Shown piece by piece: positions 29,447-51,034 of a DNA stretch of 64,000 bases. The position numbers were made by a program, and so were the translations under genes. The number at the start of each line of letters is the position of its first letter. Within the stretch, counting starts at the first letter, position 1. The stretch spans positions 1 to 64,000 of the forward strand of contig JAJFHP010000041.1 of the NCBI GenBank assembly GCA_021775555.1, given 5' to 3'. This stretch comes from Hyphomicrobiales bacterium (lineage in GTDB: Bacteria > Pseudomonadota > Alphaproteobacteria > Rhizobiales > Methyloligellaceae). The notes under the pieces were generated by a model that had not been told where the DNA came from, made no database searches, and saw nothing but the letters and a program-made list of their open reading frames with translations.

Positions 29447-29538
29447 GGTGTCAATCTGAGTCTTGACCGAGGCGTATCGCACACCGGACTCCATGAACAA
29501 CAATCCGTTCTCTGTCAAAATGATGGCAGGGAAAGGCG

Positions 29539-30324: not shown

Positions 30325-30676
30325 TTTTCTGCCCCCCCGGACTGAAGAATTTTGGCGATACTGCAAACAATCGGATTGTTTTGATTCTTTGAATTGGAAG
30401 ATTTATTACATTTATTCTAAAGAAATTCCTCTACTTGAACTACACACGTGAACATCTCTGATCTACGCCGGAACAAAACCATCCACGCCTTTTGGAAATC
30501 CACACTATGGTGTGTGTTAGAAACCGCATCACCAGCAATACTGCGGGTTGATCGGCAAGACAGAATATCAGATTGACAGAAGTTGGCATCGTTTCTTAAA
30601 ATGAGACGAAACGTCTTGTCTGGTGGAATGCTGAAATTGGGCTTGCCGTCAAGGCCATCGGGACAAGGGGGATATC
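30325..30676. other. 352-bp iclR-sauS intergenic region
   Basis: It is AT-rich near iclR and holds the divergent promoters. I see one clear regulator-like palindrome (30603-30617) and a short dyad CACAC-TATG-GTGTG (30501-30514). No gene or RNA is apparent. Confidence 0.6.
30603..30617. promoter_or_regulatory. Palindromic box upstream of sauS (putative IclR operator 2)
   Basis: GAGACG-AAA-CGTCTT is the reverse complement of the xsc box apart from the last base, and lies 59 bp before ATG 30677. Same distance and sequence on both arms strongly suggest co-regulation. Confidence 0.7.
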
Positions 30677-32077: not shown

Positions 32078-32107
32078 AAATAGCGACTCAAACGCTAGGG
32101 AGAAATC

Positions 32108-33229
32108 ATGAATTTCGAGGAACATGCGGCGAAACCATTACTTAAAGCAGCAGGCATTGTCGTGCCCGATGGCGGTCTTGCAATAAGCGCAGACGAGGCA
32201 GCGAGCCTGGCCGGGAAGATCGGCCCTTGCGTGATCAAGGCGCAGGTTCCAACGGGCAAACGCGGTAAGGCTGGCGGCATCGCGCTGGCTGCAACACCGG
32301 ATGAGGCCCGCGCAGAAGCGGCGCGCATTTTACAGCTAGAGATTGCAGGTTTTCCGGTAAATTCGGTCCTTGTCGAACAACAGGTTCCCATCAAAAAAGA
32401 ATTCTATGCCGCCGTGCTGAACGACTCCGACACCAAGGGCCCACTGCTGCTGTTCTCGGCTGAAGGTGGCATGGACATTGAGGAGATAGCGGAAAAGCAT
32501 CCCGATGCCCTGGTGCGCCTGCCCATCGATATCCGTGAAGGCCTGAACAGAAAAGCCATTGAGTCCGCACTACCGCCCATTGATGGTGTGAACCGCGAGG
32601 CCCTCGTCGATACCCTCGAAAAACTCTACGAGGCCTATATCCGGAACGACGCAGAGCTCATGGAAATCAACCCGCTGGTAACGACGCAGGATGGCCGCGT
32701 CATCGCGCTTGACTGTAAATTTTCACTCGATGACTCCGCCATCCGGCGGCATGAGGAACTGGCCAGATCCGGCGCACCCGACAAGCTTACCGAGCTGGAG
32801 CAACGCGGCCAGGATATCGGCTTCAAATATATTGAGCTGGAAGGCAGTGTCGGCGTGCTCTCCAACGGCGCCGGGCTGACCATGACCACCATGGACGCCA
32901 TCTCGCATTATGGAGGGGAACCGGCAAACTTTCTCGAGATTGGCGGCAATGCCTTCGTACTCGGCAAGCAGGCTCTGGAAGTCGTCCTCGGCAATCCCCG
33001 CGTCAAATCGCTTCTGATAAATTTCTGCGGCGCCATCGCCCGCACTGATGTCATGACCGGCGGCGTGCTGGAAGCATGGGACGATGTGGACCCGCAAGTG
33101 CCCGTCTTCTGGTCCATCAGCGGCACTGGTGAAGACGAGGCTAAAGCGATGTTGAAGGAAAAACTGGGCACCGCTCCTTACCCGACCATGGACGAGGCGG
33201 TGAAGGCCGCCGTGGAGGCTGTACAATGA
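32108..33229 (+). CDS. ADP-forming acyl-CoA ligase beta subunit (SucC-like, sulfoacetate ligase candidate)
   Basis: This 373-residue SucC-family protein has an ATP-grasp domain (about 1-230, with VIKAQVPTGKRGKAGGI and LMEINPLV) and the flavodoxin-like ligase domain GVLSNGAGLTMTTMD and FLEIGGNA. Together with the next gene it forms a two-subunit ADP-forming acid-CoA ligase. Next to sauS and xsc, the likely substrate is sulfoacetate, replacing the AMP-forming ligase (SauT) known in Cupriavidus. GGGAGA precedes the ATG, and the stop overlaps the alpha subunit by 4 bp (ATGA). Succinate or malate ligase activity is possible. Confidence 0.8.
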   Translation: MNFEEHAAKPLLKAAGIVVPDGGLAISADEAASLAGKIGPCVIKAQVPTGKRGKAGGIALAATPDEARAEAARILQLEIAGFPVNSVLVEQQVPIKKEFYAAVLNDSDTKGPLLLFSAEGGMDIEEIAEKHPDALVRLPIDIREGLNRKAIESALPPIDGVNREALVDTLEKLYEAYIRNDAELMEINPLVTTQDGRVIALDCKFSLDDSAIRRHEELARSGAPDKLTELEQRGQDIGFKYIELEGSVGVLSNGAGLTMTTMDAISHYGGEPANFLEIGGNAFVLGKQALEVVLGNPRVKSLLINFCGAIARTDVMTGGVLEAWDDVDPQVPVFWSISGTGEDEAKAMLKEKLGTAPYPTMDEAVKAAVEAVQ

Positions 33230-34104
33230 TCGTTCATGGCAATGAGAGCGTGTTGGTACAGGGCATAACGGGCACCCAGGCGACCTTCTGGTCGGAGCGC
33301 ATGAAGGAATATGGTACCCAAGTTATCGGTGGCGTGAACCCGAAAAAGGCAGGTACGCAGCATCTCGATCTGCCCGTCTGGGGCTCGGCTGAAGATGCAG
33401 CCAAGGATCAGGAAGCTGTAATCGACTGCTCATGCGTGATCGTACCGCCCCCGGGGGTAAAATCTTCCGTGCTGGATGCGCTCGATGCGGGTATCAAAAA
33501 GCTCGTCATCCTGACCGAGCATGTGCCGGTCCATGACGTGATGTATTTTCTCGCCGCCGCGCGCGAGGCAGGCGCCTCTGTTATCGGTCCGAACACTGCC
33601 GGGATCGTGACACCGGGTGAATGCTTTGTCGGCTTTATGCCGGCCTTTAACGAGCGCGTCTTCAAGCCGGGCAGCATCGGCGTCATTTCGCGGTCAGGGT
33701 CTCTGGGCACTCTGGTGTGCCTCGACATGGTTCAGGCAGGCTTCGGCATCTCCGCCTTTATCGGCATTGGTGGCGATCCGGTCATCGGCACCACCACGCG
33801 CGATGCATTGCAGTGTCTGGATGAAGACCCCAAAACGCAGGCGGTTGCGCTTGTTGGTGAAATCGGCGGCGGCATGGAAGAGGAAGCGGCCGAGTATGCA
33901 AAGGGCATGAACAAGCCGATCGTTTCTTTCATGGCCGGAGCAGCTTCGCCTCCGGGCAAGAAAATGGGGCACGCGGGCGCAATCGTCATGGGCGACAAAG
34001 GGTCCTATGCCGGCAAGAAGAAAGCACTCGAGGCAGCCGGCGTCAGCGTTCTCCCCACTCCATCCATGCTACCCGGAGCGCTGAAAGAACTGTTGCCTGC
34101 TTAG
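33226..34104 (+). CDS. ADP-forming acyl-CoA ligase alpha subunit (SucD-like)
   Basis: This 292-residue SucD-family protein has the CoA-binding N-domain (VQGITGTQATFWSERM) and the phospho-histidine loop KKMGHAGAIV, whose His carries phosphate in the ADP-forming mechanism. GEIGGGMEEEAAEYAK is the partner contact region. The start overlaps the beta-subunit stop by 4 bp, so the two are coupled. The stop overlaps the convergent MFS gene by 4 bp. Substrate inference rests on the sauS/xsc neighbours, not on residues I can read. Confidence 0.82.
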   Translation: MIVHGNESVLVQGITGTQATFWSERMKEYGTQVIGGVNPKKAGTQHLDLPVWGSAEDAAKDQEAVIDCSCVIVPPPGVKSSVLDALDAGIKKLVILTEHVPVHDVMYFLAAAREAGASVIGPNTAGIVTPGECFVGFMPAFNERVFKPGSIGVISRSGSLGTLVCLDMVQAGFGISAFIGIGGDPVIGTTTRDALQCLDEDPKTQAVALVGEIGGGMEEEAAEYAKGMNKPIVSFMAGAASPPGKKMGHAGAIVMGDKGSYAGKKKALEAAGVSVLPTPSMLPGALKELLPA

Positions 34105-37335: not shown

Positions 37336-38358
37336 TCACGTCTCCTGCGCCGCCAGACTCTTCACCTCTTCCACCAACTTGGCGGGAACGCTCAGACCAT
37401 TTTCAGCTGCTTCCTTGCGCAACGCTTCTCGGCGGCCACCGGGCAGTCGGGCGCCCTCCTGTCCGGTGATGCTCTCCATGATGGTCTCAACTCTCTCAAG
37501 AAAATGATCGCGCCCTGAAAATGCGTCTGGATTGATAGTGATAAGAAATTGTCCAACTGAAGGGGGCTCGCCTTCAGTCGTGAAGAAGGACGAGGCTTCG
37601 GTTGAAAGTGCACTGCCCGTGAGGGGCGCACAGAGGAGTTCTACCATCAATCCCAGTGCGGCACCCTTGGCACCACCGACTGGCAGAAGCACACCTTCAC
37701 TTAACGCCACTTCCGGGTCTGTTGTCGGATTGCCCTGAGCGTCTGTCGCCCAGCCTTCGGGAATGGATTTGCCTGCCTGCTGGGCGGTCATGATGTTGCC
37801 ACGCGCAACTTGCGTCATGGCCATGTCCATAACAAGCGGCAGCTCCGACTTGCGGGGAGATGCGAATGCGAGTGGTTGAGTGCCATAGATCGGCTTCGTC
37901 CCACCCCAAGGAGCCATGGCCTGCGGTGTGTTGCCCATGACAATGGCAATAAACCCGAGTTCGGCGCATTTTTCCACATGGTGCCCGAGCACTCCGCAAT
38001 GGTGCGAATTGTGAAAGGCGACGGCAGCAATCCCGTTGGTGCGCGCTTTGTCAGGAAAATAATCAAACGCCAGATCGATGGCTGGATAGAAGAAGCCCTT
38101 TTTAACATCGATAGTAATTGCGCCTGGCAACTCCTTCATGATGGAAGCATCTGCTTGCCCATCAACCTTGCCGGTGATTGCCTGGCCCGCATAGGAGGGA
38201 ATGCGTGAAAAGCCATGGCCCTTCCGCCCGTCTATTTCTGCCGCCAGCAGAGCTCGCGCAACAGAACGCGCATTCTTTTCCGATGTCCCGGAGCTCACGA
38301 GAGCCGCGAACATCAGATCCTCAAGGTCACCACAGGAGAAATGGACGGTATCGCTCAT
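37336..38358 (-). CDS. comC: Malate/L-lactate dehydrogenase-family enzyme, probable (R)-sulfolactate dehydrogenase ComC
   Basis: The 340-residue LDH2/MDH2-fold NAD(P)-dependent enzyme contains GHGFSRIPSYAG, AAVAFHNSHHCGVLGHH (with the catalytic His) and PIYGTQPLAFASPR. ComC interconverts sulfopyruvate and (R)-sulfolactate. With SlcC upstream (4-bp ATGA overlap), it can invert sulfolactate stereochemistry so that SuyAB, specific for the R form, can cleave it. It is the last gene of the operon. Malate or ureidoglycolate dehydrogenase are alternatives if the context is disregarded. Confidence 0.82.
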   Translation of the reverse strand: MSDTVHFSCGDLEDLMFAALVSSGTSEKNARSVARALLAAEIDGRKGHGFSRIPSYAGQAITGKVDGQADASIMKELPGAITIDVKKGFFYPAIDLAFDYFPDKARTNGIAAVAFHNSHHCGVLGHHVEKCAELGFIAIVMGNTPQAMAPWGGTKPIYGTQPLAFASPRKSELPLVMDMAMTQVARGNIMTAQQAGKSIPEGWATDAQGNPTTDPEVALSEGVLLPVGGAKGAALGLMVELLCAPLTGSALSTEASSFFTTEGEPPSVGQFLITINPDAFSGRDHFLERVETIMESITGQEGARLPGGRREALRKEAAENGLSVPAKLVEEVKSLAAQET

Positions 38359-39287
38359 GATGCATCACCCAGTACGCGCAGGACATTTGCCACAGTGATC
38401 GTCGAAATGGCCGTGCTTGATTCTTCAGTCACGCCGGAGATATGTGGTGTCATAATCAGGTTTGGTGCATCGGCAAACTTTCCCGCATCCTCTGCCGACA
38501 ATGGCTCATCGGCAAACACGTCCAGAGCCGCGCCGCCGATCTGGCCAGACTTGAGCGCTGTAATCAGATCATCCTCATTGATGATCCCGCCCCTCGCGGT
38601 ATTGATGAGAAAGGCACCCTTCTTCATACGCGCCATTGCATTTGCATCTATGAGGTTGCGCGTCTCCGGCATCAGAGGCGTATGAACAGACAGAATATCG
38701 CTGCGGGTGATGAGGTCATCCAGCGAGACACTTTCCGCTAGGCTCCATCCTTCCGCATCCGCCGGCACAAAAGGGTCATGGGCGATAACAGTCATCTCGA
38801 GGCCCTGCGCCATTCTGGCCGCCGACTGGCCGATCATGCCAAAGCCAAGCAGCCCGAGCGTGCGCCCGCGTGCCTCAAGGCCCACATTGTCATTGCGCGG
38901 CCATTTGCCTGCCAGAATATCGTCCTTTGAATAGAAGGAGCCCTTCAAAAGCATCATCATGGCGCAGATGGCATATTCCGCGACCGAGACATTGTTGGAA
39001 CCTGTGGCCGGACACACGACAACGCCATGTGCCTTACAGGCCTCGACATCCACATTGTCTAGCCCGACGCCCAAACGCCCGAGCACTTTGAGGTTAGGCC
39101 CTGACTTGAGAATATCGTCCGTCACCTTGGTGCGGTTGCGCACGATGAGGGCCACTGCTTGCGGGAGCAGTGTCTTTATTTCATCGGGCTTCTCGCACAG
39201 GGTCTTGTCCCAATGCACATCATATTTGGCCTTGAGCTCCTCGACGGGCTCTTCATCCATGAATTCAGTAATGACGATATCGGGCAT
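38355..39287 (-). CDS. slcC: 2-hydroxyacid dehydrogenase, probable (S)-sulfolactate dehydrogenase SlcC
   Basis: This 310-residue D-2-hydroxyacid dehydrogenase has GRLGVGLDNVD, the Rossmann GLLGFGMIGQ, NTARGGIINEDDL and a catalytic His in TPHISGVTEES. The start MPDIVITEFMDE is like SlcC of Chromohalobacter, which oxidises (S)-sulfolactate to sulfopyruvate. AGGA lies 5 bp upstream. It is followed by comC (4-bp overlap) and preceded by the tarD-like gene. Generic phosphoglycerate dehydrogenase-like activity is the alternative, but the suyAB neighbours argue for the sulfonate role. Confidence 0.84.
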   Translation of the reverse strand: MPDIVITEFMDEEPVEELKAKYDVHWDKTLCEKPDEIKTLLPQAVALIVRNRTKVTDDILKSGPNLKVLGRLGVGLDNVDVEACKAHGVVVCPATGSNNVSVAEYAICAMMMLLKGSFYSKDDILAGKWPRNDNVGLEARGRTLGLLGFGMIGQSAARMAQGLEMTVIAHDPFVPADAEGWSLAESVSLDDLITRSDILSVHTPLMPETRNLIDANAMARMKKGAFLINTARGGIINEDDLITALKSGQIGGAALDVFADEPLSAEDAGKFADAPNLIMTPHISGVTEESSTAISTITVANVLRVLGDAS

Positions 39288-39298
39288 GTTTTCCTGAC

Positions 39299-40474
39299 CT
39301 AACTAAGCTCGAGCACTCTGTTCATTTCATCCATCAGTTTGGGCTTCAATTCCATGCCGATACCGGGCTGATCCCGGGGCAGTGTCACATACCCGTCGAC
39401 AATTGGAATGTCGTCGGCAAAGCCACCGTATGGCGCGAACACACCGGGGTAGGATTCGGTGCCGCCAAGCTGGAGACCGGACGCCATATGAAGCCCAAGC
39501 TGATGACCCCCATGAGGAAGGAAGCGCCGCCGCGACCAGCCAAGTTTTGCAGCCTCCTCCAGCATGAGAAGATTTTCCGTAAGGCCATAGCAAAGTGATG
39601 GGTCGGGCTGTATCCAGTCCACATCCGGCCTCATACCACCGAAGCGCAGAAGGTTGTTCATGTCCTGATGTGAAAACAGATTTTCGCCTGTGGCGATGGC
39701 ACCTGAGTAATTCTGGATGAGCTCGGCATTGAGATGATAGTCAAGCGGGTCACCCGGTTCTTCATACCAGGCCAGCTTGAGCGGCTCGACCGCCTTGCCG
39801 AATTCAATTGCTTCTTCAAGATTGAAACGGCCATTGACGTCGATGGCGAGGTTTTCACCGGACCCCAACTCATCAGCCGCTGCCTCGACCCGCTTCATGT
39901 CATCAGCAAGCGGAACCGCACCAACTTTCATTTTACAAATGCGGTAGCCCTGCTCCCGGTAGCCGCGCATCTCGGCGCGTAATGTTTCCACGTCCTTGCC
40001 GGGGTTGTAGTAGCCACCACCGGGATAGACCAAAACCTTCTCGTCATATTTCCCATCATTGAAATGGTCAGACAATATTTTCCACAGCGGCAGCTCGGCG
40101 ATCTTGCCGTGCAAATCCCAAATGGCTGTGTCGAGCGCGCCGATGCAGTAGGACCGCTCTCCATGCCCACCGGGTTTTTCGTTGGACATGAGGGTGGCCC
40201 ACACGGCCTGCGGTGAAAAATTCTCCGCCGTCTCATCGAGCAGGGACTTGGGATCGGCTTCTTCAAGACGAGGCAGGAAGCGCGACGCCAGCAAGCCCGG
40301 CTGAGCGTAGCGGCCATTGGAAGAAAAACCGTATCCGATCACCGGTTCGCCATCGCGCACGACATCGGTTTCCACGGCGACGACATTCGTGGTCATCGTT
40401 TTGAAATTGATGAAGGCGTTCGACATGGTTGATGCGAGAGGCGCCGACACATGGCGGATGTTTGTGATTTTCAT
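39299..40474 (-). CDS. Enolase-superfamily dehydratase, D-tartrate dehydratase (TarD)-like
   Basis: This 391-residue mandelate-racemase/enolase-superfamily protein has the KMKVG lysine motif, the metal ligands in AIDVNGRF, WYEEPGDP and TGENLFSH, and the catalytic PHGGHQ. From memory of the family it resembles Bradyrhizobium D-tartrate dehydratase over its whole length (SNGRY, NEKPGGHGERS, VYPGGGYYNPGK). TarD dehydrates a vicinal hydroxy-dicarboxylate, so in this operon a sulfonated hydroxy-diacid is an attractive alternative to D-tartrate. GGGGGGAG precedes ATG 40474. Confidence 0.82.
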   Translation of the reverse strand: MKITNIRHVSAPLASTMSNAFINFKTMTTNVVAVETDVVRDGEPVIGYGFSSNGRYAQPGLLASRFLPRLEEADPKSLLDETAENFSPQAVWATLMSNEKPGGHGERSYCIGALDTAIWDLHGKIAELPLWKILSDHFNDGKYDEKVLVYPGGGYYNPGKDVETLRAEMRGYREQGYRICKMKVGAVPLADDMKRVEAAADELGSGENLAIDVNGRFNLEEAIEFGKAVEPLKLAWYEEPGDPLDYHLNAELIQNYSGAIATGENLFSHQDMNNLLRFGGMRPDVDWIQPDPSLCYGLTENLLMLEEAAKLGWSRRRFLPHGGHQLGLHMASGLQLGGTESYPGVFAPYGGFADDIPIVDGYVTLPRDQPGIGMELKPKLMDEMNRVLELS

Positions 40475-40536: not shown

Positions 40537-41712
40537 TCAAGCGCTTCGATAAAGCTTTGTCATGACAAACTCCCGATGCCCGAGTGTTTCTGCCGCCGTA
40601 TTGCGCCCGTTCGACGTGCGGCGGATCATCTCGATGAGTGCATCACCAGCCGTATCCAGCGTCATGTCCCGCCTCAGGATACCCGTGACATCCACGTCGA
40701 CATGCTCCGACATGGTGCGCACGGTGCGCGGGTTCGCCGTGATCTTGATAACCGGCACGATCGGGTTCCCGACGATGTTGCCCTGGCCCGTGGGGAAGGT
40801 GTGAACCACGTAACCTGCCGCACCCATCAGCGTGACACATTCCGCGGCTGCGGAAGAGGTATCCATGTAATAGAGCCCCGCTCCCTTTTCGGGCGCCTCG
40901 GCGGGCTCCAGCACATCGATATATTTACACTCCCGGCCAATCTTCTCCAGATTGCCCAGCGCCTTTTCCTCGATGGTGGTGAGGCCCCCTTCGATATTTC
41001 CCTTGGTTGGCTGGCTATCTGAGAGGTCGTCCACCTTGTGCGCCTCGATGACATCATCCTGATAGGCGTTGAAGGTCTTCATGAACTTCTTCCCGATCTC
41101 AGGTGAGGCAGCACGCGCTTCGCAGATATGTTCAGCACCGGTGATTTCCGATGTCTCGCCGAAGCAGCCATAGATGCCCTTGGGGATCAGCTTGTCATAC
41201 ATGTTGCCGACAGTCGGGCAGGATCCCAGCCCCGTTGTCGTGTCGGACTCACCGCACTTGGTTGAGACCCACAACTCGGACATGTCACATTCCTCGCGTT
41301 GCAGCTCCGTCGCCCACTGGACATATTCCTGTGCCTTGCGCCCTGCTGTCGCGACGGTTTCCAGATCTCCATGCTGCTCGATTGCGAAGCCAGTCACCGG
41401 CTTTCCCGTCTTGGCGATGCCATCCACGATCACCTTCGTCCAGTGCGGCTCGATGCCGATGACGATGACAGCCGCCACGTTGGGGTTGGCGCCAGTGCCG
41501 ATCATGGTGCGGAAATGCAAATCCAGGTCCTCGCCAAATTGCAGCCGCCCGTAGGAGTGAGGCAGCGCCATGGTGCCCTTGATATTGTTGCCCACCGCCT
41601 CACAGGCAGCGTTTGAGATGTCATCAACTGGTAAGATGATGACGTGATTGCGCACGCCGACACGACTATTCTCGCGCCGGTAGCCCATGAATGTATTGTT
41701 ACTGCTCGCCAT
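40537..41712 (-). CDS. suyB: (2R)-sulfolactate sulfo-lyase beta subunit SuyB (UxaA family)
   Basis: This 391-residue UxaA-family large subunit contains [41 protein letters not shown] and [20 protein letters not shown]. With SuyA it eliminates bisulfite from (R)-3-sulfolactate to give pyruvate. ATG 41712 is used because AGGGAGA sits 6 bp upstream; an in-frame TTG at 41730 would overlap suyA. Altronate or galactarate dehydratases are the paralogues, but their alpha and beta pairing with slcC/comC identifies SuyB. Confidence 0.87.
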
Positions 41713-41723: not shown

Positions 41724-42011
41724 CTACCAACGCTTCGTTTTGAGATTGTGCACATGGACATGCTCGCCGGTGGCAGCATCGCCAACCATCTTGCCGATAT
41801 CCACGCCATATTTGATGATCGTGTCGCCCTCTTTGAGATCCGTGAGCGCAACCTTGTGACCAATCGGAATATCGTGCTCCGACTTCACGTTGATGGTGGT
41901 GTCATTTTCCGTGATGACGCCGAGCATATCGGTGCCCGCCTCAAGCCCCTCAATGACGACAACGCCGACATTGTCCTTAGGGCTGTGAACGAGGAATTGT
42001 GGTTCTGCCAT
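41724..42011 (-). CDS. suyA: (2R)-sulfolactate sulfo-lyase alpha subunit SuyA (SAF domain)
   Basis: This 95-residue SAF-like protein ([21 protein letters not shown]...) is the small subunit that pairs with UxaA-type lyases. It includes [17 protein letters not shown] and [13 protein letters not shown], the typical ending of SAF subunits. GGAGA precedes the ATG, and suyB starts 11 bp after its stop. Confidence 0.87.
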
Positions 42012-42051: not shown

Positions 42052-42732
42052 TTAAATCAGTTCATCAGTCTTGTTCCGGGTCTCGCCATACCGCGCAAGC
42101 GCGGGGGGCTTGAGGCCTTCGTAAAGCCCCTCGACCCGCTCATTTACTTCTTTGTTGTTGCGCTCAAACAGCGAATTTCCGTGAATATCGCTCTCAACCA
42201 GAAGCGGACCAAAATTTTCCAATTTCAAAATCCACATGGCTTGCGCGATGCCAAGCTCATCAAGCCAGTTGACCGCCTCAACATCAACGATGCCGCGCCC
42301 GAGCAATGCGCCGGTGCCGTAGCCCACCGTGGTGAGATAAACCGCGCCGTGAGGAACATAGAGTTCATTGTAATGCGCCTGGCTCATACCGCCTTTGCCA
42401 ATAATGACTTTCGTGCCTGTTTCGGAAAACCAGCGGTCGAGATATTTGGCAAAGCGGAAGCTCGCCGTCGCCGTCACTGCACCAATATTGTAGCTGCCAT
42501 CATCATTTTGCGAGGCGGCGGGTGCGCAATGGAAATTGACATTGGTGAGCCTGGTGAAATCAACGTCCGGCGTTTCACCCTTGTTCAATATTTTCTCGTA
42601 GACACCCTCTCGCGCCGTGTAGAGCATCCCGTCAAGAAAGGCGACGGAGCCGATTTCAAGGCTCTTGAGATCTTCATCGGAGATTGGCGTCTTTAACCGA
42701 ACGGTTTTCAACTTGCTTGCACGTTCACCCAT
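42052..42732 (-). CDS. Class I fumarase/tartrate dehydratase-type beta subunit
   Basis: This 226-residue C-terminal-type subunit of the iron-sulfur hydro-lyases has RLKTPISDEDLKSLEIGSV, FHCAPAASQ, TKVIIGKGGMS and TTVGYGTGALLG. ATG 42732 is used because GGGGGG lies 5 bp upstream; a longer reading would run into the alpha subunit. It works with the adjacent alpha protein. Two-subunit forms are known for L-tartrate dehydratase and fumarase; I propose hydration of an unsaturated sulfo-dicarboxylate. Confidence 0.87.
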   Translation of the reverse strand: MGERASKLKTVRLKTPISDEDLKSLEIGSVAFLDGMLYTAREGVYEKILNKGETPDVDFTRLTNVNFHCAPAASQNDDGSYNIGAVTATASFRFAKYLDRWFSETGTKVIIGKGGMSQAHYNELYVPHGAVYLTTVGYGTGALLGRGIVDVEAVNWLDELGIAQAMWILKLENFGPLLVESDIHGNSLFERNNKEVNERVEGLYEGLKPPALARYGETRNKTDELI

Positions 42733-42743: not shown

Positions 42744-43709
42744 TTACTCCGCTGCACCGGCAAGCGCCGCATTGCCGTCCCAGCCAACTGTATTGCGCCG
42801 CATATAGGGCGTGAACCACTCCGGATCCGTTCTGTAATCAACTGACCCGTCAGAATAAAGCCTTGCGGTTGCACGTCGTGAGGAGAGACAGAAACAATGA
42901 ACTGACATGGGCATGCCGCCGGTATGGGTGTAGCCAACTTCAATGTTGCATCCGACCACAGTTGAATTGCCGTTGAAGCCCATGGCGCCAAGGCCGGTCG
43001 TGTTCCCGAGCTCTTTCAGTTCGTCTTCAAGCTTCGCCACTTCCGCCTGGGGATGGCGCGAACCAACGGTTCTGAGGCACGCCGCCTGTTTTCCGAGCAT
43101 CATGCAGGTGTCTTTAGAGCCGCCGAGTCCAATACCAACAATGGCCGGCTGGCAGGCAAGGCCTCGCTTGCCGAAAGCGAGCAGTACATCAAGGAAGAAG
43201 CGCTTGATGCCGTCGATACCATCGCCCGGGAACAGCATCCGGTAGTCAGTGCCGAACAGGCCCCCCTTGTGGACTGTTGTGATGTCGATCCAGTCTGTAT
43301 CCGGCTCGAAGGAATATTCAATCTCTGGCGCATTCATGCCCACATTATTGTTGTTGTCCTGCCGGGTGAGTGGATGGACCCGGTTGGGCCTGAGCGGAAT
43401 GTCGTGCGTGGCCTGCGCTGTGGCCCGGCGGAGGCGGTGTTCAAGCTCGATAAACCCGCCTTCAATCTGCGCCTCGTTGCCGGTCTTGATGTAGTAGCGC
43501 GGCACACCCGTATCGCCGCACATGGGACGCCGGTCTTCGGTAGCAACCTCCCAGTTCTCCAGCATGGCTTCGAGTACGAAGGCAGAGAGGTCACCCTTCT
43601 CCATATCGATCATACCCTTGATGCCGGACTTGTAGTCCTCCGGGATGTCGATCGCTGCACGCGCCATGATTTCGTTGGCGGCCATCTCGATGGTCTCGGA
43701 CTTGATCAT
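42744..43709 (-). CDS. Class I fumarase/tartrate dehydratase-type alpha subunit (4Fe-4S)
   Basis: This 321-residue N-terminal-type subunit carries the three cluster cysteines expected of class I fumarase and TtdA: MCGDTGVP, a Cys in CQPAIVGIGLGG or AACLRTVG, and one in VVGCNIEV (assignment by family, not certain). GLGGSKDTCM, ETIEMAANEI and NNNNVGMNAPEIE are family features. A perfect AGGAGG precedes ATG 43709. It follows the SdhA-like gene and is coupled to the beta subunit 11 bp downstream. Confidence 0.87.
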   Translation of the reverse strand: MIKSETIEMAANEIMARAAIDIPEDYKSGIKGMIDMEKGDLSAFVLEAMLENWEVATEDRRPMCGDTGVPRYYIKTGNEAQIEGGFIELEHRLRRATAQATHDIPLRPNRVHPLTRQDNNNNVGMNAPEIEYSFEPDTDWIDITTVHKGGLFGTDYRMLFPGDGIDGIKRFFLDVLLAFGKRGLACQPAIVGIGLGGSKDTCMMLGKQAACLRTVGSRHPQAEVAKLEDELKELGNTTGLGAMGFNGNSTVVGCNIEVGYTHTGGMPMSVHCFCLSSRRATARLYSDGSVDYRTDPEWFTPYMRRNTVGWDGNAALAGAAE

Positions 43710-43719: not shown

Positions 43720-45486
43720 CTACTCCGCAACCTGTGGCGGCGGCGCAATCTCAGGCGGCGCGCCGGCCTCACCGTCAATCAGCGACTCGCCAGGTTTGAC
43801 GATGGAGAACTCAACCGGTTCTGACCCGGTTTTGAGCTCGTCTCCGTCGCTCAATTCAATCGTTGTGTATCGTGTCTTCTCAAGCTCACCCGTTTCGGCA
43901 AAATCAGAGCGGTAATGAGCGCCGCGGGAATCCTCCCGAGCCAATGCAGCGCGTGCGATGGACTTGGACACCAGGATCTGGCTCTCAAGATTGAGCCAGT
44001 CGTGCCAAGTGAGATTGAAGGCGCGCGTTGAATCCGCAAGGCCACTCGCTGCATGCTGCTCACCAAGAGCATCCAGCTCTGAGATGCATTCTTCAAGCAG
44101 GCTCTTATCCCGGATGATTCCCGCCTTGTCCCACATGAGATCAACAAGCTCTTCACGTATCGCGTTGAGATCACCGGGCTTGCTCGCAAAGGGTTTGAGG
44201 CAGCGCCCGACTTCATGCTCCAGCACCGATGCATCGGGCTCGCGCCAGTCCGCACCCCTGGCGATAGCATCTGCCATTGCTTCCCCGGCAACGCCGCCGA
44301 ACACAGTGGAATTTGCAACACCATTGCCGCCGAGCCGGTTGGCGCCATGCACACCTCCCGAATCTTCTCCAGCAACATAAAGACCTTCAAGGGTCGTGGT
44401 GCAATCGGGCTCGAATGCAATACCGCCCATCATGTAATGTGCCGTAGGGAGCACCTCGACATCACCGCCCGCAAGGTCAAACCCGCAATCCGCGCAGCGC
44501 TTCACCATGCCCTTGAACTGCTTGGCAACCTTTTCCGGGCCCAGATGCGCCATGCGGATATAGATACCCCCATTCGGCGTGCCGCGACCGGCGCGCACCT
44601 CTTCGATCATGGAGCGCGATACCACGTCGCGCGTCGCACGCTCGCCATGGGCGTGATAATTGAACATGAAGCGCTCACGCTCACCATTCAGCAGATAGCC
44701 GCCAGACCCGCGCAGACCTTCTTCGAGAATGGTGCCCGTCATGCGCGTGTCGTTCCCAGCCAGAATACCCGTGGGGTGAAACTGCACCATCTCCATATCG
44801 CGGAGCTTGAGACCGGCCCGCAGACCCATCGTCATGCCATCGCAGGATTTATCTCCCGATGGCGTGTGGTATCGATACATGGTCGGTCCGCCTCCAGCGC
44901 CCAGAAGAACCGTCTTCGCCTGTACAAAACGGAAGCTGCCCTCGCGCATATTGATGAGCAAAACGCCGGCAATTCCCGATCCATCTTTTGTGGGTATGAA
45001 AGCAACCGCGCGATGCTCTTCAAGACGCTTGATATCCTGTGCCCAGACCTGCTCCGAGAGGCGGTTGATAATCTCGATCCCAGTAAGGTCGCCCTTGTGT
45101 ACCGTGCGATCAAAACTCTGACCGGCAAAGGCCTTCTGGTGCAATGAACCATCAGAGTTCCGGTCGAAATAACAGCCATACTCGTTTTCGAGTTCATGGA
45201 TGCGCTTCACCGCACCGTTCACTAGTGCCCAGGCCAGTTCCTGATGGGGCAGCCATTTTCCACCGACAATGGTGTCCATGAAATGCCGCTCGATAGAGTC
45301 GTCCGAGTTCAACGCCACGTTAAACCCGCCCTGCACCATGCGGGTGCACCCTGACTTTCCGACGAGGCCTTTAACAGCAATCGTAATGTCGAGGTCCGGA
45401 TTGGCCTTCTTGGCATAGAGCGCGGCAAATAGCCCGGCACCACCGGAGCCGATAATAAGGATGTCCGTGCGCATGGTCTCAAGCAT
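43720..45486 (-). CDS. Succinate dehydrogenase/fumarate reductase-like flavoprotein lacking the FAD-linking His
   Basis: The 588-residue flavoprotein has IIGSGGAGLFAAL (FAD), QFHPTGI, EEGLRGSGGY (substrate Arg), TAHYMMGGI (substrate His) and VHGANRLGGNGV. The active site is therefore close to SdhA/FrdA. In canonical SDH the covalent-FAD His sits in SHTxxAQGG; here the equivalent segment reads SGCTRMVQGG, with Cys47 in place of the His, so FAD should be non-covalent. A missing flavin link usually impairs succinate oxidation, hence a changed substrate or direction is likely. It is followed by the fumarase alpha gene (10 bp). Confidence 0.88.
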   Translation of the reverse strand: MLETMRTDILIIGSGGAGLFAALYAKKANPDLDITIAVKGLVGKSGCTRMVQGGFNVALNSDDSIERHFMDTIVGGKWLPHQELAWALVNGAVKRIHELENEYGCYFDRNSDGSLHQKAFAGQSFDRTVHKGDLTGIEIINRLSEQVWAQDIKRLEEHRAVAFIPTKDGSGIAGVLLINMREGSFRFVQAKTVLLGAGGGPTMYRYHTPSGDKSCDGMTMGLRAGLKLRDMEMVQFHPTGILAGNDTRMTGTILEEGLRGSGGYLLNGERERFMFNYHAHGERATRDVVSRSMIEEVRAGRGTPNGGIYIRMAHLGPEKVAKQFKGMVKRCADCGFDLAGGDVEVLPTAHYMMGGIAFEPDCTTTLEGLYVAGEDSGGVHGANRLGGNGVANSTVFGGVAGEAMADAIARGADWREPDASVLEHEVGRCLKPFASKPGDLNAIREELVDLMWDKAGIIRDKSLLEECISELDALGEQHAASGLADSTRAFNLTWHDWLNLESQILVSKSIARAALAREDSRGAHYRSDFAETGELEKTRYTTIELSDGDELKTGSEPVEFSIVKPGESLIDGEAGAPPEIAPPPQVAE

Positions 45487-45840
45487 CTAGAACGCCCTCA
45501 TCAAAAAAAGAATGCCAATGCCCGCACCGAAGGCAAAGCAGCAGGCAATCCACGCACTTTGCGCCCGCGTCAGCCCCAGGAACTCGATCGCGAGCACTCT
45601 CAAGCCCCCGGCGAAATGAACGGCCAGAGCCGCTACAAGCAAGCTTTCGGATATCTTCACCAGCGGCTGGTTGGACCAGGATATGGCGCCCGCGAATGCC
45701 GTTTCATCCAGGGCCAGGCCGAGGGTGAGAAAATGAAGGGGGAGGAAAATGGCCAGCGCCAAGCCAGACAGGCGATGAACGAGCGCCGCAACAAAACCCG
45801 GATGCGCACGGGACGCGCGTGTGATGCCGCTGATGCTCAT
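45487..45840 (-). CDS. SdhC-like cytochrome b membrane anchor subunit
   Basis: This 117-residue protein has three hydrophobic helices. HRLSGLALAIFLPLHF resembles the quinone-site HRxSG motif, and HFAGGLRVL matches the heme-ligand HxxxGxR motif of SdhC. ATG 45840 overlaps the preceding stop as ATGA (45846 is an alternative ATG). It anchors the flavoprotein and FeS subunits and passes electrons to quinone. Confidence 0.8.
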   Translation of the reverse strand: MSISGITRASRAHPGFVAALVHRLSGLALAIFLPLHFLTLGLALDETAFAGAISWSNQPLVKISESLLVAALAVHFAGGLRVLAIEFLGLTRAQSAWIACCFAFGAGIGILFLMRAF

Positions 45841-46166
45841 GCCCATACCACCGCGTAAATGGCGCGTGCGCCAAGCAGCCATAAAATGGCAATCAGCGTA
45901 TGGCCGATATTCGCTGAAGCCTGTCGGCCGAGCGGGGTCCACTCGTGCAGGATCGTCTGCATCCCAATCCCGGCATGAATGGACGCGGCCAAAACAAACA
46001 CACCATAAAAACCTGCCCACAGCATGGAGCCGCGCGTACGAGACAAAATCTCTTCCGCGGAAAGCCCGCCCTGAACTGCCATGATGATAACGGCAAGATG
46101 GGTGATGATCAGCGGCACCATGAGCATCGCCGTACCACGTTGCAGAAAGTAGGAGAGCGGTGTCAT
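45837..46166 (-). CDS. SdhD-like membrane anchor subunit
   Basis: This 109-residue protein has three membrane helices; the motif SIHAGIGMQTILHEW resembles the HxxxG motif of the small SDH/FRD anchor and may supply the second heme ligand. The start overlaps the FeS-subunit stop as ATGA, and GGGAG lies 8 bp upstream. With the SdhC-like gene it makes a two-anchor (type C-like) membrane part. Confidence 0.78.
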   Translation of the reverse strand: MTPLSYFLQRGTAMLMVPLIITHLAVIIMAVQGGLSAEEILSRTRGSMLWAGFYGVFVLAASIHAGIGMQTILHEWTPLGRQASANIGHTLIAILWLLGARAIYAVVWA

Positions 46167-46891
46167 TTCAGCGCTCCCTTGAGTTTTGCCTTTAGGCTCG
46201 CGCGCTTCAGACCGGCAATTGAAAAGGTCGGGTTGAGCGAAACCGGGCAATGTTCTGTGCAGGACTGATGAGAGTGGCAGGTGTGGCAGCCGGCGCCTTG
46301 TGAAACCGCCTTGAGAATACCGTTGCGATCACCATCGCGGACATCGTTATAAGCCGCCCAGGCCCGGTTCAGCGCAGCTGGCCCGAGATAATCATCATTC
46401 CAGGACACCACATCACAGGCCGAATAACACACCCCGCAATTGATGCATTCGATGGCAGCACTCGCGGCTGACCTCTCCCTGCTCTCAGGTTGCACAGGGG
46501 CCAGCTCATCCTTTGGCCCGTCGCCTGCAACAAATCTCCCGCGTGCATCGCGCCATTTCTCGAAGAAAGGTGTCATGTCGGTCACGAGATCGCGGATGAC
46601 TGGCAGATTCGTGAGCGGGGCAATGGTCAGTTTGCCACCCTTCACCACGCGCGACACATGGGTACGGCAGGTCCAGCGCGGGCGACCATTGACAGTCATG
46701 GTGCAGGACCCGCACACGCCAACGCGGCAGGCAAAGCGGTAGGCCAATGCTGGATCAAGATGGCGCTGGATATAGGTCACCACGTCCAGAACGGTCTGGT
46801 TTTCTCTCTCTGGAACCTCGAAGGACTGGTATTCCCCCTTTTCGTTCCCGCGCCAGATATCAACCTTGAGTGTGCGATCAGAGGAGGTCAT
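46163..46891 (-). CDS. SdhB/FrdB-like iron-sulfur subunit
   Basis: This 242-residue protein carries the ferredoxin-like [2Fe-2S] motif CRVGVCGSC plus a later Cys (RWTC), then CINCGVCYSAC and CHTCHSHQSCTEHCP for the [4Fe-4S]/[3Fe-4S] clusters. The last region, with extra Cys and His, differs from ordinary SdhB. GAGGAG precedes the ATG and the start overlaps the gntR stop by 4 bp. Gene order B-D-C-A differs from the usual sdhCDAB, supporting a paralogue rather than the TCA-cycle enzyme. Confidence 0.85.
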   Translation of the reverse strand: MTSSDRTLKVDIWRGNEKGEYQSFEVPERENQTVLDVVTYIQRHLDPALAYRFACRVGVCGSCTMTVNGRPRWTCRTHVSRVVKGGKLTIAPLTNLPVIRDLVTDMTPFFEKWRDARGRFVAGDGPKDELAPVQPESRERSAASAAIECINCGVCYSACDVVSWNDDYLGPAALNRAWAAYNDVRDGDRNGILKAVSQGAGCHTCHSHQSCTEHCPVSLNPTFSIAGLKRASLKAKLKGALK

Positions 46892-47664
46892 GAGCGGGCC
46901 GCCTCGTTTGTTGCGAGCGTGATATCGAGTTTCACCGCATCGCCGCGATAATTGACGATACCCACATAGATGGCGCGGCCATCTTTGTCCTGCACCACCC
47001 GGCGCAGGATGCCGATAGGCGACCCGATTGGAACTTCCAGCCCATCAGCCACCTGATTGTCGGCGGTGCCGATGGTGAGTGTCTGGCGAATATCGGAGAT
47101 CTCTACCCCGCGCATGCGTTCGATGACCGGGATAATCATTTCCTCATCGAATCGCTTCGGCGCGCGGGTATAAAGTTTTGCATCGAGATGCATATCGACC
47201 ACCGCATAGGCCCGTTCACCGCGCCCATGAACGCGCCGCATATGGCGGTACGCGGGTGCGGCGCTGCCATCAACAGGCTCAAGATGCGGTACGCTTTCCC
47301 CGGCATCCACTTCGATAATACGAGACCAGGTGCCTTCGAGCGAATGGATCAGTTCATCCCGGCTCGTCTCCAGCTTGAACCATTCAGGCCCCGCTGTATC
47401 GGAAACAAAAGTGCCACGCCCGCGCCTGCGCCAAATCATGCCCTCGGCTTCCAGCAGACTGAGCGCCTGGCGCAGCGTCACCCGGGCGACTTGAAATTCA
47501 CGCTCAAGCTCATCGAGTGTCGGCAGCTGGTCACCCGCAGCCCAATGGCCGGAGCGAATACGCTGACGGAATATGTTGGCCACCTGCGCATAGAGCGTTC
47601 CGTGCTTCTCAGAGAAAGCCGGGCGCGCCTTCTCAATGCGCTTTTCTTCTGTTTCGATTGACAT
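46888..47664 (-). CDS. GntR/HutC-family regulator, first gene of the sulfonate operon
   Basis: This 258-residue regulator has an N-terminal winged helix (LYAQVANIFRQRIRSGHWAAGDQLP, VARVTLRQALSLLEAEGMIWRRRGRGTFV) and a UTRA effector domain (about 85-250). It is co-transcribed with the ten catabolic genes downstream and divergent from the ThDP gene, a typical arrangement for local autoregulation. The ligand is probably a pathway carboxylate. A SuyR-like role is plausible. Confidence 0.88.
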   Translation of the reverse strand: MSIETEEKRIEKARPAFSEKHGTLYAQVANIFRQRIRSGHWAAGDQLPTLDELEREFQVARVTLRQALSLLEAEGMIWRRRGRGTFVSDTAGPEWFKLETSRDELIHSLEGTWSRIIEVDAGESVPHLEPVDGSAAPAYRHMRRVHGRGERAYAVVDMHLDAKLYTRAPKRFDEEMIIPVIERMRGVEISDIRQTLTIGTADNQVADGLEVPIGSPIGILRRVVQDKDGRAIYVGIVNYRGDAVKLDITLATNEAARS

Positions 47665-47729: not shown

Positions 47730-47763
47730 ATTAGCTCTTATGATCAAGCAAGGGGCATGTTCG

Positions 47764-49395
47764 GTGACTGAGAGAAAAATTAAAACAAGCGTTGCCACGC
47801 GTATGGCGGAGACCATGAAGTCATATGGCGTACGCTTCGTGTTTGGTATTCCCGGCAATGATGTGCTGGAACTGATCCGCGCCTGCGAAGCGCAGGACAT
47901 CCGCTTTATTTTGGCCAAGTCAGAACCTTCCGCCGGGTTCATGGCCGACGCTGTGGCGCAACTCACAGGGGATCCCGCCGCATGCATTTTTGCCCTTGGC
48001 CCTGGTGTTGTGAATGGCGCGACTGGTGTTGCGGGCGCATTGATGGAGCGCACGCCGGTCATCATCCTTGGCGGTGAGATGGCGGCGAACAGGCGCGGCC
48101 TCTACACCCACCAGGTGTTCGATCACGTGGCGCTGATGGCGCCCATCTCCAAAATGGCGGCCGAGTTGAACCCGGAGCGCGCTTCCCAGCAAATGGCCAA
48201 GGCGCTCGATGTGGCGATGTGCGAACCACGCGGACCCGTGTTCCTTAACTGCCCGGCCGACGCAACCCGCGCTGAAGCAGAAGAAACAAAAACCTATACA
48301 TCGACGCCGCAACAATTGGGTGTTGCCAGTGATGCCGCCTGTGCAGATGCCCGAAATGCCCTGACGAAGGCAAAAAAGCCTCTGGCCCTTATTGGTCTGG
48401 GAGCATTGCGCCCTGGTGTCCCGGAACCGGTGAAGCAGTTCCTGGAAAACTGGCAATTGCCCTTCCTGACAACTTTCAAGGCCAAGGGCGTGGTGTCCGA
48501 GCGCCATGCCCTGTCGCTCGGCGCGCTGGGCCTCAGCCCTATCGTCGATGAGTTGACGCTTGATCTGGTGGCGCAAGCCGACCATCTGACACTGATCGGA
48601 TTTGACCCCATTGAGCTGCGAGACGCCTGGATCAATGCCTGGGGACCCGATACGCCCTGCATCACCCTTGATTGGGCGACGCAGACAAACCGCATGTTCC
48701 CCCCGGGACAACAGATCATCGGTGATTTGCCGATCAATCTGCACGCCATCGCGCAAGACGCCTCACCCGCCACAACTTGGCCCGGCGAGACACTTGAAGC
48801 TTACCGGGCGGCAACAGCCACGATCGTTATGCCTCGAACACCGAAGTCAGGCGTCAGTCCCGCCGCCCTGTTCGCGGCCGTGAATGAGCATCTGGATGAT
48901 GATACGATTTGTACGGCAGATGTGGGGGCGCATCGCATTCTTGCCTGCCACGCATTGAAATGCACTATGCCCAACCAGTTGCTGCAATCCAACGGGCTCT
49001 GCTCCATGGGCTATGCCATTCCCGCCGCAGTGGCCGCATCCCTGGCAGAACCTGACAAGCGCCTGGTGGCGCTGCTGGGTGATGGCTCCGCACTCATGAG
49101 CCTGGGCGAGCTTGCCGTTGTCGCAGAGCATGATCTGCCCATCACAGTAGTTGTGCTGAATGATGACGCCCTGACACTGATCGAGCTGAAACAAACGAAA
49201 TTGCAGGTTGAGACAGGCTCGGTGAGGTTTAAAAGTCCGAACTTCATGGAAGTGGCAAAGGGCTTCGGCATCGAGGCCGTTCGCGCGACAACAAACGAGT
49301 CCTTTAAAAAGGCATATGAACAATCACGCACCGCAAAAGGACCGTTGCTAATTGAAGCGGTATGCGATCCAAGCGAATACTGGGACCAGATGTAG
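47764..49395 (+). CDS. ThDP-dependent enzyme (acetolactate synthase/decarboxylase type), sulfopyruvate decarboxylase candidate
   Basis: This 543-residue ThDP enzyme has a catalytic-type Glu in LAKSEPSAGFMADA and the ThDP/Mg motif GDGSALMSLGE...NDD. GTG 47764 is chosen because AAGGGG lies 8 bp upstream, whereas ATG 47740 has no Shine-Dalgarno. It is a single polypeptide, unlike two-subunit ComDE, and lacks the regulatory features of acetolactate synthase. In context it could decarboxylate sulfopyruvate (product of SlcC) to sulfoacetaldehyde for Xsc. It is followed by a GMC oxidoreductase 31 bp downstream. Confidence 0.72.
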   Translation: MTERKIKTSVATRMAETMKSYGVRFVFGIPGNDVLELIRACEAQDIRFILAKSEPSAGFMADAVAQLTGDPAACIFALGPGVVNGATGVAGALMERTPVIILGGEMAANRRGLYTHQVFDHVALMAPISKMAAELNPERASQQMAKALDVAMCEPRGPVFLNCPADATRAEAEETKTYTSTPQQLGVASDAACADARNALTKAKKPLALIGLGALRPGVPEPVKQFLENWQLPFLTTFKAKGVVSERHALSLGALGLSPIVDELTLDLVAQADHLTLIGFDPIELRDAWINAWGPDTPCITLDWATQTNRMFPPGQQIIGDLPINLHAIAQDASPATTWPGETLEAYRAATATIVMPRTPKSGVSPAALFAAVNEHLDDDTICTADVGAHRILACHALKCTMPNQLLQSNGLCSMGYAIPAAVAASLAEPDKRLVALLGDGSALMSLGELAVVAEHDLPITVVVLNDDALTLIELKQTKLQVETGSVRFKSPNFMEVAKGFGIEAVRATTNESFKKAYEQSRTAKGPLLIEAVCDPSEYWDQM

Positions 49396-49426
49396 GGTTC
49401 TGAACGTCAATAAGGGGGGGAACTCG

Positions 49427-51034
49427 GTGAGCGATGACGAGCAGATATATGACTATATCATTGCAGGCGCGGGTTCAGCCGGGTGCGTGCTAGCCAACCG
49501 CCTGAGTGCCAATGGCCGCTATACAGTACTTTTGCTGGAAGCAGGCACGAAGGACACCAACCCCTGGATACACATTCCGCTTGGCTACTTCAAAACCATG
49601 CACAACCCCAAGACGGACTGGTGCTACATGACCGAGCCTTGCGAGGGACTGGGCGGACGCTCGATCCAGTGGCCTCGCGGCAAGGTGCTGGGCGGTTCAA
49701 GTTCAATTAACGGGCTGATCTATATCCGTGGCCAGCCGGAGGACTATGACCACTGGCGACAACTGGGGAACGCCGGCTGGGCCTTCAAGGACGTGCTGCC
49801 TTACTTCAAAAAATCAGAAGGCAACGAGCGCGGCAGTGATGACATTCACGGTGGCGATGGCCCCTTGAAAGTCTCGGACTCTCGCGCCCAGCGCGAATTG
49901 TGCGACATGTTTATTGACGCGGCAGTGTGTGCCGGCATTCCCCGCACAAATGATCTGAACGGGATCGTTCAGGATGGGGTCGCCTATACGCAGCAGACCA
50001 CTCATAAGGGCTTGCGCTGCTCGACAGCGGTCGCCTATCTGCGACCGGCGCAATCGCGCGCCAATCTCAGCGTGGTCACTCGGGCCCATGTAGAAAAGGT
50101 CCTGTTCGAGGGCAAACGCGCCACTGGCATTCAGTATCGCACACCATCTGGCATGAAGCGGTCGCGGGCCGGCCGCGAAGTCATCCTGGCCCTTGGGGCC
50201 ATCGGATCGCCGCAGATCCTGATGACCTCCGGTGTTGGCCCGGCAGGACATCTGCGAGACCATGATATCGATATAGTGCACGACCTTGAGGGCGTGGGGG
50301 GAAATTTACAGGACCATCTGCAAGTTCGCATGGTCTACAGGATCAACCAGCCGCTTTCACTCAATGATGATGTCAGGAACCCGCTGCGCAAGGCGATGAT
50401 GGGCGTGAACTGGGCGCTGAGGCGGCGCGGACCGCTGACTTTCGCCGCCAGCCCGTTGAGTGCCTTTGTCAAATCTGACCCGAAGATGGCTACCACGGAC
50501 CTGCAATTTTTCATGCAGCCCCTCAGCGCGGATTCCCCTGGCGAGGGCCTCCATAAATTTTCCGCCTTCTCCACGTCCTTCTGCCAGTTGCGGCCTGAAA
50601 GTGCGGGTCATCTGGAATTGAAATCAGCCGACCCGCATGTTTACCCGGCCATTCACCCGAATTATCTGGCAAGCGAGACCGATCGGCAGGCGGTCATCGC
50701 CGGCATGAAAATCACACGCAAGATCATAGCCTGCGAGCCACTTGCCTCGATCATGGAGGAAGAACTCTATCCCGGTGAACATATCCAATCCGATGAAGAG
50801 TTGCTGGAATCCGGGCGCGAGACCAGCCAGACCATCTATCACCCGATTGGCACCTGCAAGATGGGATCGGACGCGAAAGCGGTTGTCGACCAGTGCTTGC
50901 GAGTCCATGGCCTTAAAGGATTGCGCGTTGTCGATGCCTCGATCATGCCCACCGTACCGTCAGGCAATACCAATGCGCCAACCATCATGATTGCGGAAAA
51001 AGCCAGCGATATCATCTTGGGAGATTTGGGGTGA
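49427..51034 (+). CDS. GMC-family flavin-dependent alcohol oxidoreductase
   Basis: This 535-residue GMC flavoprotein has [16 protein letters not shown] (FAD), [38 protein letters not shown] and a C-terminal [12 protein letters not shown] with the active-site His, then [18 protein letters not shown] 49427 is used because AAGGGGGGG precedes it by 6 bp; a longer reading would begin inside the ThDP gene. It is choline-dehydrogenase-like and could oxidise a sulfonated alcohol. Co-transcribed with the ThDP enzyme. Confidence 0.88.

Follow-up and report, generated by a model that had tools for sequence, protein, structure and literature searches.

A stretch of 64,000 nucleotides from a Hyphomicrobiales bacterium (contig JAJFHP010000041.1, here called the window) carries at positions 43720 to 45486 of its minus strand the gene of an SdhA-like flavoprotein, in which Cys47 stands at the place of the histidine that links flavin adenine dinucleotide (FAD) in succinate dehydrogenase and fumarate reductase. 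The cysteine is present in all 93 members of the family examined and is thus, as judged from the alignment, a fixed family trait rather than a product of chance or a sequencing slip. The pocket is also altered, and the surrounding genes point to organosulfur compounds. The substrate is probably some sulfonated carboxylate, and there is about an even chance that the flavoprotein is part of a 3-sulfopropionate:quinone dehydrogenase, the substrate being read from gene context alone.

Invariant cysteine and altered substrate pocket

The features of the flavoprotein gene that are discussed here are the following.

43720-45486, minus strand: SdhA-like flavoprotein, 588 amino acids from an ATG start (Pfam FAD_binding_2 and Succ_DH_flav_C)
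45346-45348, minus strand: Cys47 codon, aligned with the FAD-linking His (phmmer and MAFFT alignment)
44722-44724, minus strand: Glu255 codon, replacing the Thr before FrdA Glu245 (Glu in 93/93, Thr in 5/5 references)
44743-44745, minus strand: Arg248 codon, in the inserted T-R/K-x-T-G loop (Arg in 90/93, Lys in 3/93)

In a phmmer comparison the segment GKSGCTRMVQGG pairs with the S-HT..EGG segment of Escherichia coli FrdA, with Cys47 opposite the FAD-linking His and one extra Gly preceding it relative to FrdA. The family set consists of the window protein, 80 genome loci and 12 plasmid loci (L006 being partial), and was aligned by MAFFT with five references, E. coli FrdA, E. coli SdhA, the SdhA of the same genome (L001) and two NadB or NadB-like proteins, giving 98 sequences. 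The first-pass annotation of this DNA had stated that Cys47 replaces the FAD-linking His and had suggested an alignment with SdhA, FrdA and NadB. That alignment bears the statement out: the column holds Cys throughout the family, His in FrdA, SdhA and L001, and Ser in the two NadB or NadB-like proteins.

The further statement that the other catalytic residues are kept holds in part. FrdA His232, Glu245, Arg248, Arg287, His355 and Arg390 (numbering as labelled in this analysis), whose Arg and His residues we take to be catalytic or carboxylate-binding, are conserved in 93/93. On the other hand, the Thr preceding Glu245 has become Glu in every member, and a loop is inserted before this Glu255, reading T-R-x-T-G in 90 proteins and T-K-x-T-G in the other three. 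In addition, 15 charged, polar, Cys or Trp positions (K44, C47, R49, N56, R67, E102, K118, D126, R159, K213, E255, R283, R330, D375 and W494) are shared by 91 or more of 92 relatives, partial L006 excluded, and are missing from all five references. The altered pocket appears to indicate a different substrate more directly than the cysteine does.

In a tree of 45 rows, 39 family rows fall on one side of a branch with a Shimodaira-Hasegawa-like approximate likelihood ratio test value of 99; the references are six rows, five of which have long end branches. A Foldseek search with the predicted model gave the fumarate reductase flavoprotein FrdA (6awf) as top match, with a template modelling score of 0.82.

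Relation to known flavoproteins

The features of the complex II superfamily were found: a flavoprotein, an iron-sulfur subunit and two membrane subunits, four in all, the predicted FrdA fold, and FrdA Arg287, His232, His355 and Arg390. Unlike succinate dehydrogenase and fumarate reductase, the protein lacks the FAD-linking His, has Glu for the Thr before Glu245 as well as the inserted loop, lies on a separate branch and is encoded in a putative catabolic operon. Its scores miss the SdhA and FrdA cut-offs (TIGR01812, 409 of 567.3 bits; TIGR01816, 326 of 727.35; TIGR01176, 336 of 932.7). An ordinary second succinate dehydrogenase was rejected, since the pocket and the His differ and a canonical His-type SdhA (L001) is encoded elsewhere in the genome. 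A NadB-like protein (L004) and AprA (L003) are encoded there too.

The best NCBIfam model is TfrA, of the thiol:fumarate reductase TfrAB of methanogens. Its score of 500 bits, however, lies below the cut-off of 718, the window's SdhB is a plain protein of 242 residues compared with a TfrB model length of 488, and membrane subunits are present. L-aspartate oxidase NadB likewise has no FAD-linking His, and His116 and His130 both have a His counterpart in the E. coli enzyme, but NadB keeps the Thr before Glu245 and its model gives 332 bits against a cut-off of 452.75. Both identities, TfrA and NadB, were ruled out because their cut-offs are not reached.

Predicted operon and proposed route

The flavoprotein gene lies in a run of 12 minus-strand genes that extends from 47664 to 37336, in which neighbours overlap slightly or lie no more than about 60 bases apart. 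The run is predicted to be an operon holding a paralogous complex II, of which the SdhA-like protein would be the A subunit; it stands between the second membrane subunit and the hydratase alpha gene in the following order.

46888-47664, minus strand: GntR/UTRA regulator (Pfam search)
46163-46891, minus strand: SdhB-like iron-sulfur subunit, 242 amino acids (TIGR00384, 193.9 bits, cut-off 88)
45837-46166, minus strand: SdhD/SdhC-like membrane subunit (Sdh_cyt, 31.6 bits for open reading frame 45837-46250)
45487-45846, minus strand: SdhC-like membrane subunit (Sdh_cyt, 40.1 bits for open reading frame 45487-46020)
42744-43709, minus strand: TtdA/FumA-like hydratase alpha, proposed sulfoacrylate hydratase (TIGR00722, 223 bits, cut-off 100.65)
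42052-42732, minus strand: TtdB/FumB-like hydratase beta (TIGR00723, 110 bits, cut-off 145.15; Pfam Fumerase_C)
41724-42011, minus strand: SuyA-like subunit (no Pfam match; 67% identical to the L092 protein)
40537-41712, minus strand: SuyB-like subunit (GD_AH_C, 267 bits; 82% identical to the L092 protein)
39299-40474, minus strand: D-tartrate-dehydratase-like protein of the enolase superfamily (464 bits to 2dw7, Bll6730, which we take to be D-tartrate dehydratase)
38355-39287, minus strand: SlcC-like 2-hydroxyacid dehydrogenase (PGDH, 298 bits, cut-off 454; 48.5% identical to the L092 protein)
37336-38358, minus strand: ComC-like dehydrogenase (best model L-sulfolactate dehydrogenase NF040650, 223 bits, cut-off 500; 48% identical to the L092 protein)

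In the favoured reading, FAD would take a hydride and a proton from 3-sulfopropionate to give 3-sulfoacrylate, and the electrons would pass via SdhB to quinone. The TtdAB-like hydratase would then convert sulfoacrylate to 3-sulfolactate, the SlcC/ComC pair would adjust its stereochemistry, and SuyAB would split (R)-sulfolactate into pyruvate and sulfite. 3-Sulfopropionate was chosen because it is succinate with one carboxylate swapped for a sulfonate, and because its dehydrogenation and hydration would lead to the substrate of SuyAB and SlcC/ComC; 3-sulfopropionate, sulfoacrylate and sulfolactate correspond, as sulfonates, to succinate, fumarate and malate.

The TtdAB-like proteins do not reach the equivalog cut-offs for L(+)-tartrate dehydratase (170 of 365 and 120 of 264 bits). 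No GD_AH_C match other than the SuyB-like protein was found in the genome. SuyAB is described as a two-subunit relative of UxaA that lacks the four Cys common to UxaA and GarD enzymes (PMC6336799; papers are cited by PubMed Central number for the passages available from them). One of the nine Cys of E. coli UxaA is kept in 25/25 SuyB-like rows and another in 17/25, the match of these to the four Cys of PMC6336799 being a guess. The window genes resemble the known (R)-sulfolactate sulfo-lyase SuyAB with SlcC/ComC in being a two-subunit UxaA relative with neighbours as in L092 (see below), and differ from it in that complex II and hydratase genes precede them. The D-tartrate-dehydratase-like protein could be a sulfo-lyase with sulfolactate or sulfomalate as its substrate.

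Relatives in genomes and on plasmids

The genome loci are the best 80 of 584 confirmed stretches, at 64-88% identity, and the plasmid loci are 12 examined out of 18 plasmid records with a match. Clustered gene calls place SdhB at 65 of the 80 genome loci, hydratase alpha at 65 and beta at 60, a thiamine pyrophosphate (TPP) enzyme at 27, ComC-like proteins at 22, SuyB at 18 and SlcC-like proteins at 13. A hydratase subunit adjoins sdhA in 74/92 loci. At least one of SuyA, SuyB, ComC-like, SlcC-like and TauE occurs at 43 of the 80 genome loci and at 27 of the 40 that are near full length. A sulfatase gene was seen within the cluster at 7/80 loci (L059, 4435-5817, and relatives).

On the plasmids, TauE/SafE is annotated at ten of the 12 loci, a YeiH-type or putative sulfate exporter at seven, and a sulfite-oxidase-type enzyme is found at three (two by annotation, L086 by clustering with those two). 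The recurrence of relatives beside sulfite exporters counts for a sulfonate substrate. L092, from Sinorhizobium mexicanum ITTG R7, was selected for its SuyB from a record that is without annotation there, and carries a compact GntR-SuyA-SuyB-YeiH-PGDH-Ldh cluster. Sinorhizobium mexicanum is named among the species with SlcC, ComC, SuyA and SuyB homologues (PMC12421959), and we infer that the L092 genes are those homologues.

The haloarchaeal plasmid loci L091 (7512-14509) and L096 (5563-12531) hold a Cys-type SdhA, SdhB, an argH-like lyase, TauE and SuyAB-like genes; no TtdAB-like gene or membrane subunit is annotated nearby. The lyase, of the argininosuccinate-lyase superfamily, sits between TauE and sdhA and scores 257 and 260 bits with the XcbC model (cut-off 575). 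XcbC1 makes sulfoacrylate (PMC8727900), so that an XcbC-like lyase in this position counts for sulfoacrylate chemistry. In L089 (Pseudorhizobium NT-26) the succinate dehydrogenase-like cluster, TauE and a tripartite ATP-independent periplasmic (TRAP) transporter are followed at 22143-24668 by a sulfolactaldehyde-3-reductase-like gene (324 bits, cut-off 348) and a succinate-semialdehyde dehydrogenase (SSADH) gene (691 bits, cut-off 646), candidate steps from 3-hydroxypropanesulfonate to 3-sulfopropionate. In L090 the next gene after the hydratase encodes a CoA-acylating methylmalonate-semialdehyde dehydrogenase (15409-16899; 695 bits, cut-off 448.5), whose relatives occur in 7/80 loci.

Taken together, the first-pass suggestion of another substrate gains support from the pocket, changed in 93/93, from the canonical His-type SdhA elsewhere in the genome, and from an operon and relatives that point to sulfonated carboxylates.

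Surroundings of the operon

Three further features lie 3-10 kb beyond the operon, and two of them, Xsc and SauS, score above curated cut-offs.

27571-29349, minus strand: Xsc, sulfoacetaldehyde acetyltransferase, outside the operon (TIGR03457, 966.8 bits, cut-off 676.4)
30677-32077, plus strand: SauS, acylating sulfoacetaldehyde dehydrogenase, neighbouring (NF047625, 761 bits, cut-off 600)
32108-34104, plus strand: SucCD-like ligase, two genes directly after SauS (349 bits, cut-off 370; 323 bits, cut-off 353.2)

We read the region as a sulfonate island. Positions 27571-34104 resemble a sulfoacetate-type module of Xsc, a regulator, SauS and the SucCD-like ligase. The genome's AprA (L003, 1471-3342) scores 1083 bits against a cut-off of 641.75, which implies that sulfite may be oxidised via adenosine 5'-phosphosulfate. 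Divergent from the operon, 47740-51034 holds an acetolactate-synthase-like TPP enzyme and a glucose-methanol-choline oxidoreductase; the TPP enzymes near many relatives are distant kin of the former, at about 25% identity. Farther away, three consecutive plus-strand genes at 20164-23781 resemble subunits of xanthine/CO-dehydrogenase-type molybdoenzymes, as compared by eye from their first residues.

Co-occurrence across genomes

This SdhA is present in 15, and SuyB in 21, of 192 genomes that belong to the same class as the window. Both occur together in ten genomes where 1.6 would be expected (p 5e-8); in seven of the ten they lie on different contigs of draft assemblies, which leaves their distance unproven. 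Xsc accompanies SdhA in 6/15 genomes (1.8 expected). E. coli UxaA, a SuyB relative of other function used as control, also goes with SdhA (11/15 versus 4.0 expected, p 1e-4), and the co-occurrence of SuyB is for this reason partly a lifestyle effect. The link to SuyB holds both within UxaA-positive genomes (7/11, p 7e-4) and within UxaA-negative ones (3/4, p 1e-3).

Weighing the substrate and the direction

A number of observations, besides the lifestyle effect, weigh against 3-sulfopropionate as the substrate. None of SuyA, SuyB, Ldh, PGDH and TauE was found at 37/80 genome loci, or at 13/40 near-full-length ones, many loci being incomplete, and of the 15 genomes with SdhA five lack SuyB and three lack both SuyB and Xsc. 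A TauE-like gene is called in 21/80 genome loci against 2.4 expected from the TauE density of the window's genome, but the calls come from a home-made hidden Markov model trained on the same set and the expectation from the Pfam model; counted by tblastn, TauE is found in 8/80, without a second cluster that Pfam calls TauE. TauE is moreover ubiquitous (14/14 control genomes), it is called in neither of the two nearest relatives, L005 and L007, and it is absent from the window's operon, the seven TauE matches of the genome all lying outside the window (nearest at C36:134901). YeiH and SorT occur in 0/80 genome loci. The scores of the ComC-like, SlcC-like and TtdB-like proteins fall below their family cut-offs, the haloarchaeal lyase scores above the cut-off for argH (323 against 279.5), and the D-tartrate-dehydratase-like gene has no clear step in the route. 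Finally, Glu255 is odd in an anion-binding pocket, and the predicted structure is weak at the active site, with a predicted local distance difference test value below 50 for residues 41-54 and 118-134.

The main rival substrate is sulfosuccinate, which we regard as possible but unlikely. The complex would then form sulfofumarate, and the hydratase would either yield 3-sulfomalate, from which a SuyAB-like or D-tartrate-dehydratase-like enzyme would take off sulfite, or hydrate the sulfonated carbon to give oxaloacetate and sulfite directly. Since sulfomalate resembles tartrate, the D-tartrate-dehydratase-like gene would have a task here and is better explained than by 3-sulfopropionate, and loci without SuyAB would need no additional gene to arrive at oxaloacetate. 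The Arg and His residues that presumably bind carboxylates are kept in 93/93, and the several basic residues gained might be needed by a more charged substrate. The XcbC-like lyase and the SSADH neighbour, however, fit C3 sulfonates, and sulfosuccinate is, as far as is known, mainly man-made, while the family reaches haloarchaea. Relatives of SlcC, ComC and SuyAB are tied to sulfolactate in the available passages of PMC12421959. 'Sulfomalate' and 'sulfofumarate' are absent among the matches listed in the open PubMed Central literature, and searches there gave no pathway for sulfosuccinate, sulfofumarate or sulfomalate, only 'sulphosuccinate' being among the matches listed.

It is similarly doubtful that the operon encodes a second dicarboxylate or tartrate-type system unrelated to sulfonates, in which the complex would oxidise malate, methylsuccinate or another dicarboxylate and the three dehydratase-like enzymes would handle tartrate stereoisomers or related hydroxy acids. 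The TtdAB-like and D-tartrate-dehydratase-like neighbours would suit such a system, as would the 37 loci without a sulfonate marker, and GD_AH enzymes dehydrate sugar acids (PMC6336799). It accounts poorly for Xsc and SauS nearby, for sulfite exporters at 10/12 plasmid loci, and for a SuyB-like protein in which only one of the nine UxaA Cys is kept in 25/25 rows. An open PubMed Central search on tartrate dehydratase together with succinate dehydrogenase gene clusters gave no lead among the material accessible there.

A different product is quite improbable. In loci without SuyAB, water might be added at the sulfonated carbon of sulfoacrylate, giving malonate semialdehyde and sulfite, as the methylmalonate-semialdehyde dehydrogenase directly after the hydratase in L090 and its relatives in 7/80 loci could indicate; the window, with its SuyAB-, SlcC- and ComC-like genes, does not fit this.

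Least probable, and very unlikely, is operation in reverse as a sulfoacrylate reductase, with sulfolactate passing via sulfoacrylate to 3-sulfopropionate at the expense of quinol, as an electron sink or for sulfonate storage or excretion: a missing FAD-linking His favours reduction (PMC9557727) and the fumarate reductase model TfrA, though below its cut-off, scores best in NCBIfam, but the SuyAB neighbours, the sulfite exporters and the genes of sulfite-oxidase type imply that sulfite is released, and the L089 aldehyde dehydrogenase would make rather than use 3-sulfopropionate. The reducing direction that the first-pass annotation had offered beside another substrate thus found no support, as the hydratase, 2-hydroxyacid dehydrogenase-like, sulfo-lyase-like and sulfite-exporter genes would fit oxidative breakdown.

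Flavin linkage

To our knowledge, no 8alpha-S-cysteinyl FAD linkage has been described in the complex II family; Cys serves as the flavin linker in other enzymes. The absolute conservation of Cys47 would fit a cysteinyl link, but would fit other roles too, and FAD seems more likely to be noncovalent than linked to this residue. His116 and His130 lie near the Cys47 region in sequence, and E. coli NadB, whose flavin is noncovalent, has both, which speaks against their taking over the linkage.

According to PMC9557727, the FAD potential is about 90-150 mV lower when the flavin is noncovalent, and succinate is not oxidised by soluble fumarate reductases or by the L-aspartate oxidase of E. coli, in all of which FAD is noncovalent. 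The available passages of that source agree, for noncovalent FAD, with the first-pass claim that loss of the His goes with loss of succinate oxidation; an open PubMed Central search on TfrA and noncovalent FAD gave nothing pertinent in the accessible text. The lower potential leaves either a different substrate couple or another bond that restores the potential. An improbable combination is that bacteria and haloarchaea share a sulfonate copy of the succinate-fumarate-malate-oxaloacetate stretch, through 3-sulfopropionate, sulfoacrylate, sulfolactate and sulfopyruvate, whose complex II would carry an 8alpha-S-cysteinyl bond between Cys47 and FAD that restores a high potential for oxidation.

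Implications

3-Sulfopropionate and 3-hydroxypropanesulfonate are end products of the fermentation of sulfosugars and 2,3-dihydroxypropane-1-sulfonate, and their bacterial degradation is described as unreported apart from a Konstanz thesis, according to which 3-sulfopropionate is broken down in Roseovarius nubinhibens with sulfoacrylate and sulfolactate as intermediates (PMC11489063, passages available). The route proposed here shares these three intermediates, the comparison being one of intermediates and not of genes. In open PubMed Central searches no title, abstract or passage seen names the genes of a dehydrogenase for 3-sulfopropionate or sulfosuccinate. In Paracoccus wurundjeri, sulfofucose raises the levels of nine proteins encoded in a 'fumarate and tartrate' cluster, which holds a TauE homologue and which PMC12421959, in the passages available, links only to the Krebs cycle. 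This 'cluster 3' resembles the present one by description, in its fumarate and tartrate metabolism and its TauE homologue, and by analogy we infer that it may be the same cluster; the 3-sulfopropionate route might then explain it.

If the favoured reading is true, it would supply gene candidates for a 3-sulfopropionate dehydrogenase and a sulfoacrylate hydratase, missing enzymes of the natural sulfur cycle, and would correct the annotation of a large family whose members are at present labelled 'FAD-binding protein' or 'fumarate reductase'. The invariant cysteine offers a clean way to test the purpose of the covalent flavin bond, and the family would represent a complex II recruited for organosulfur catabolism.

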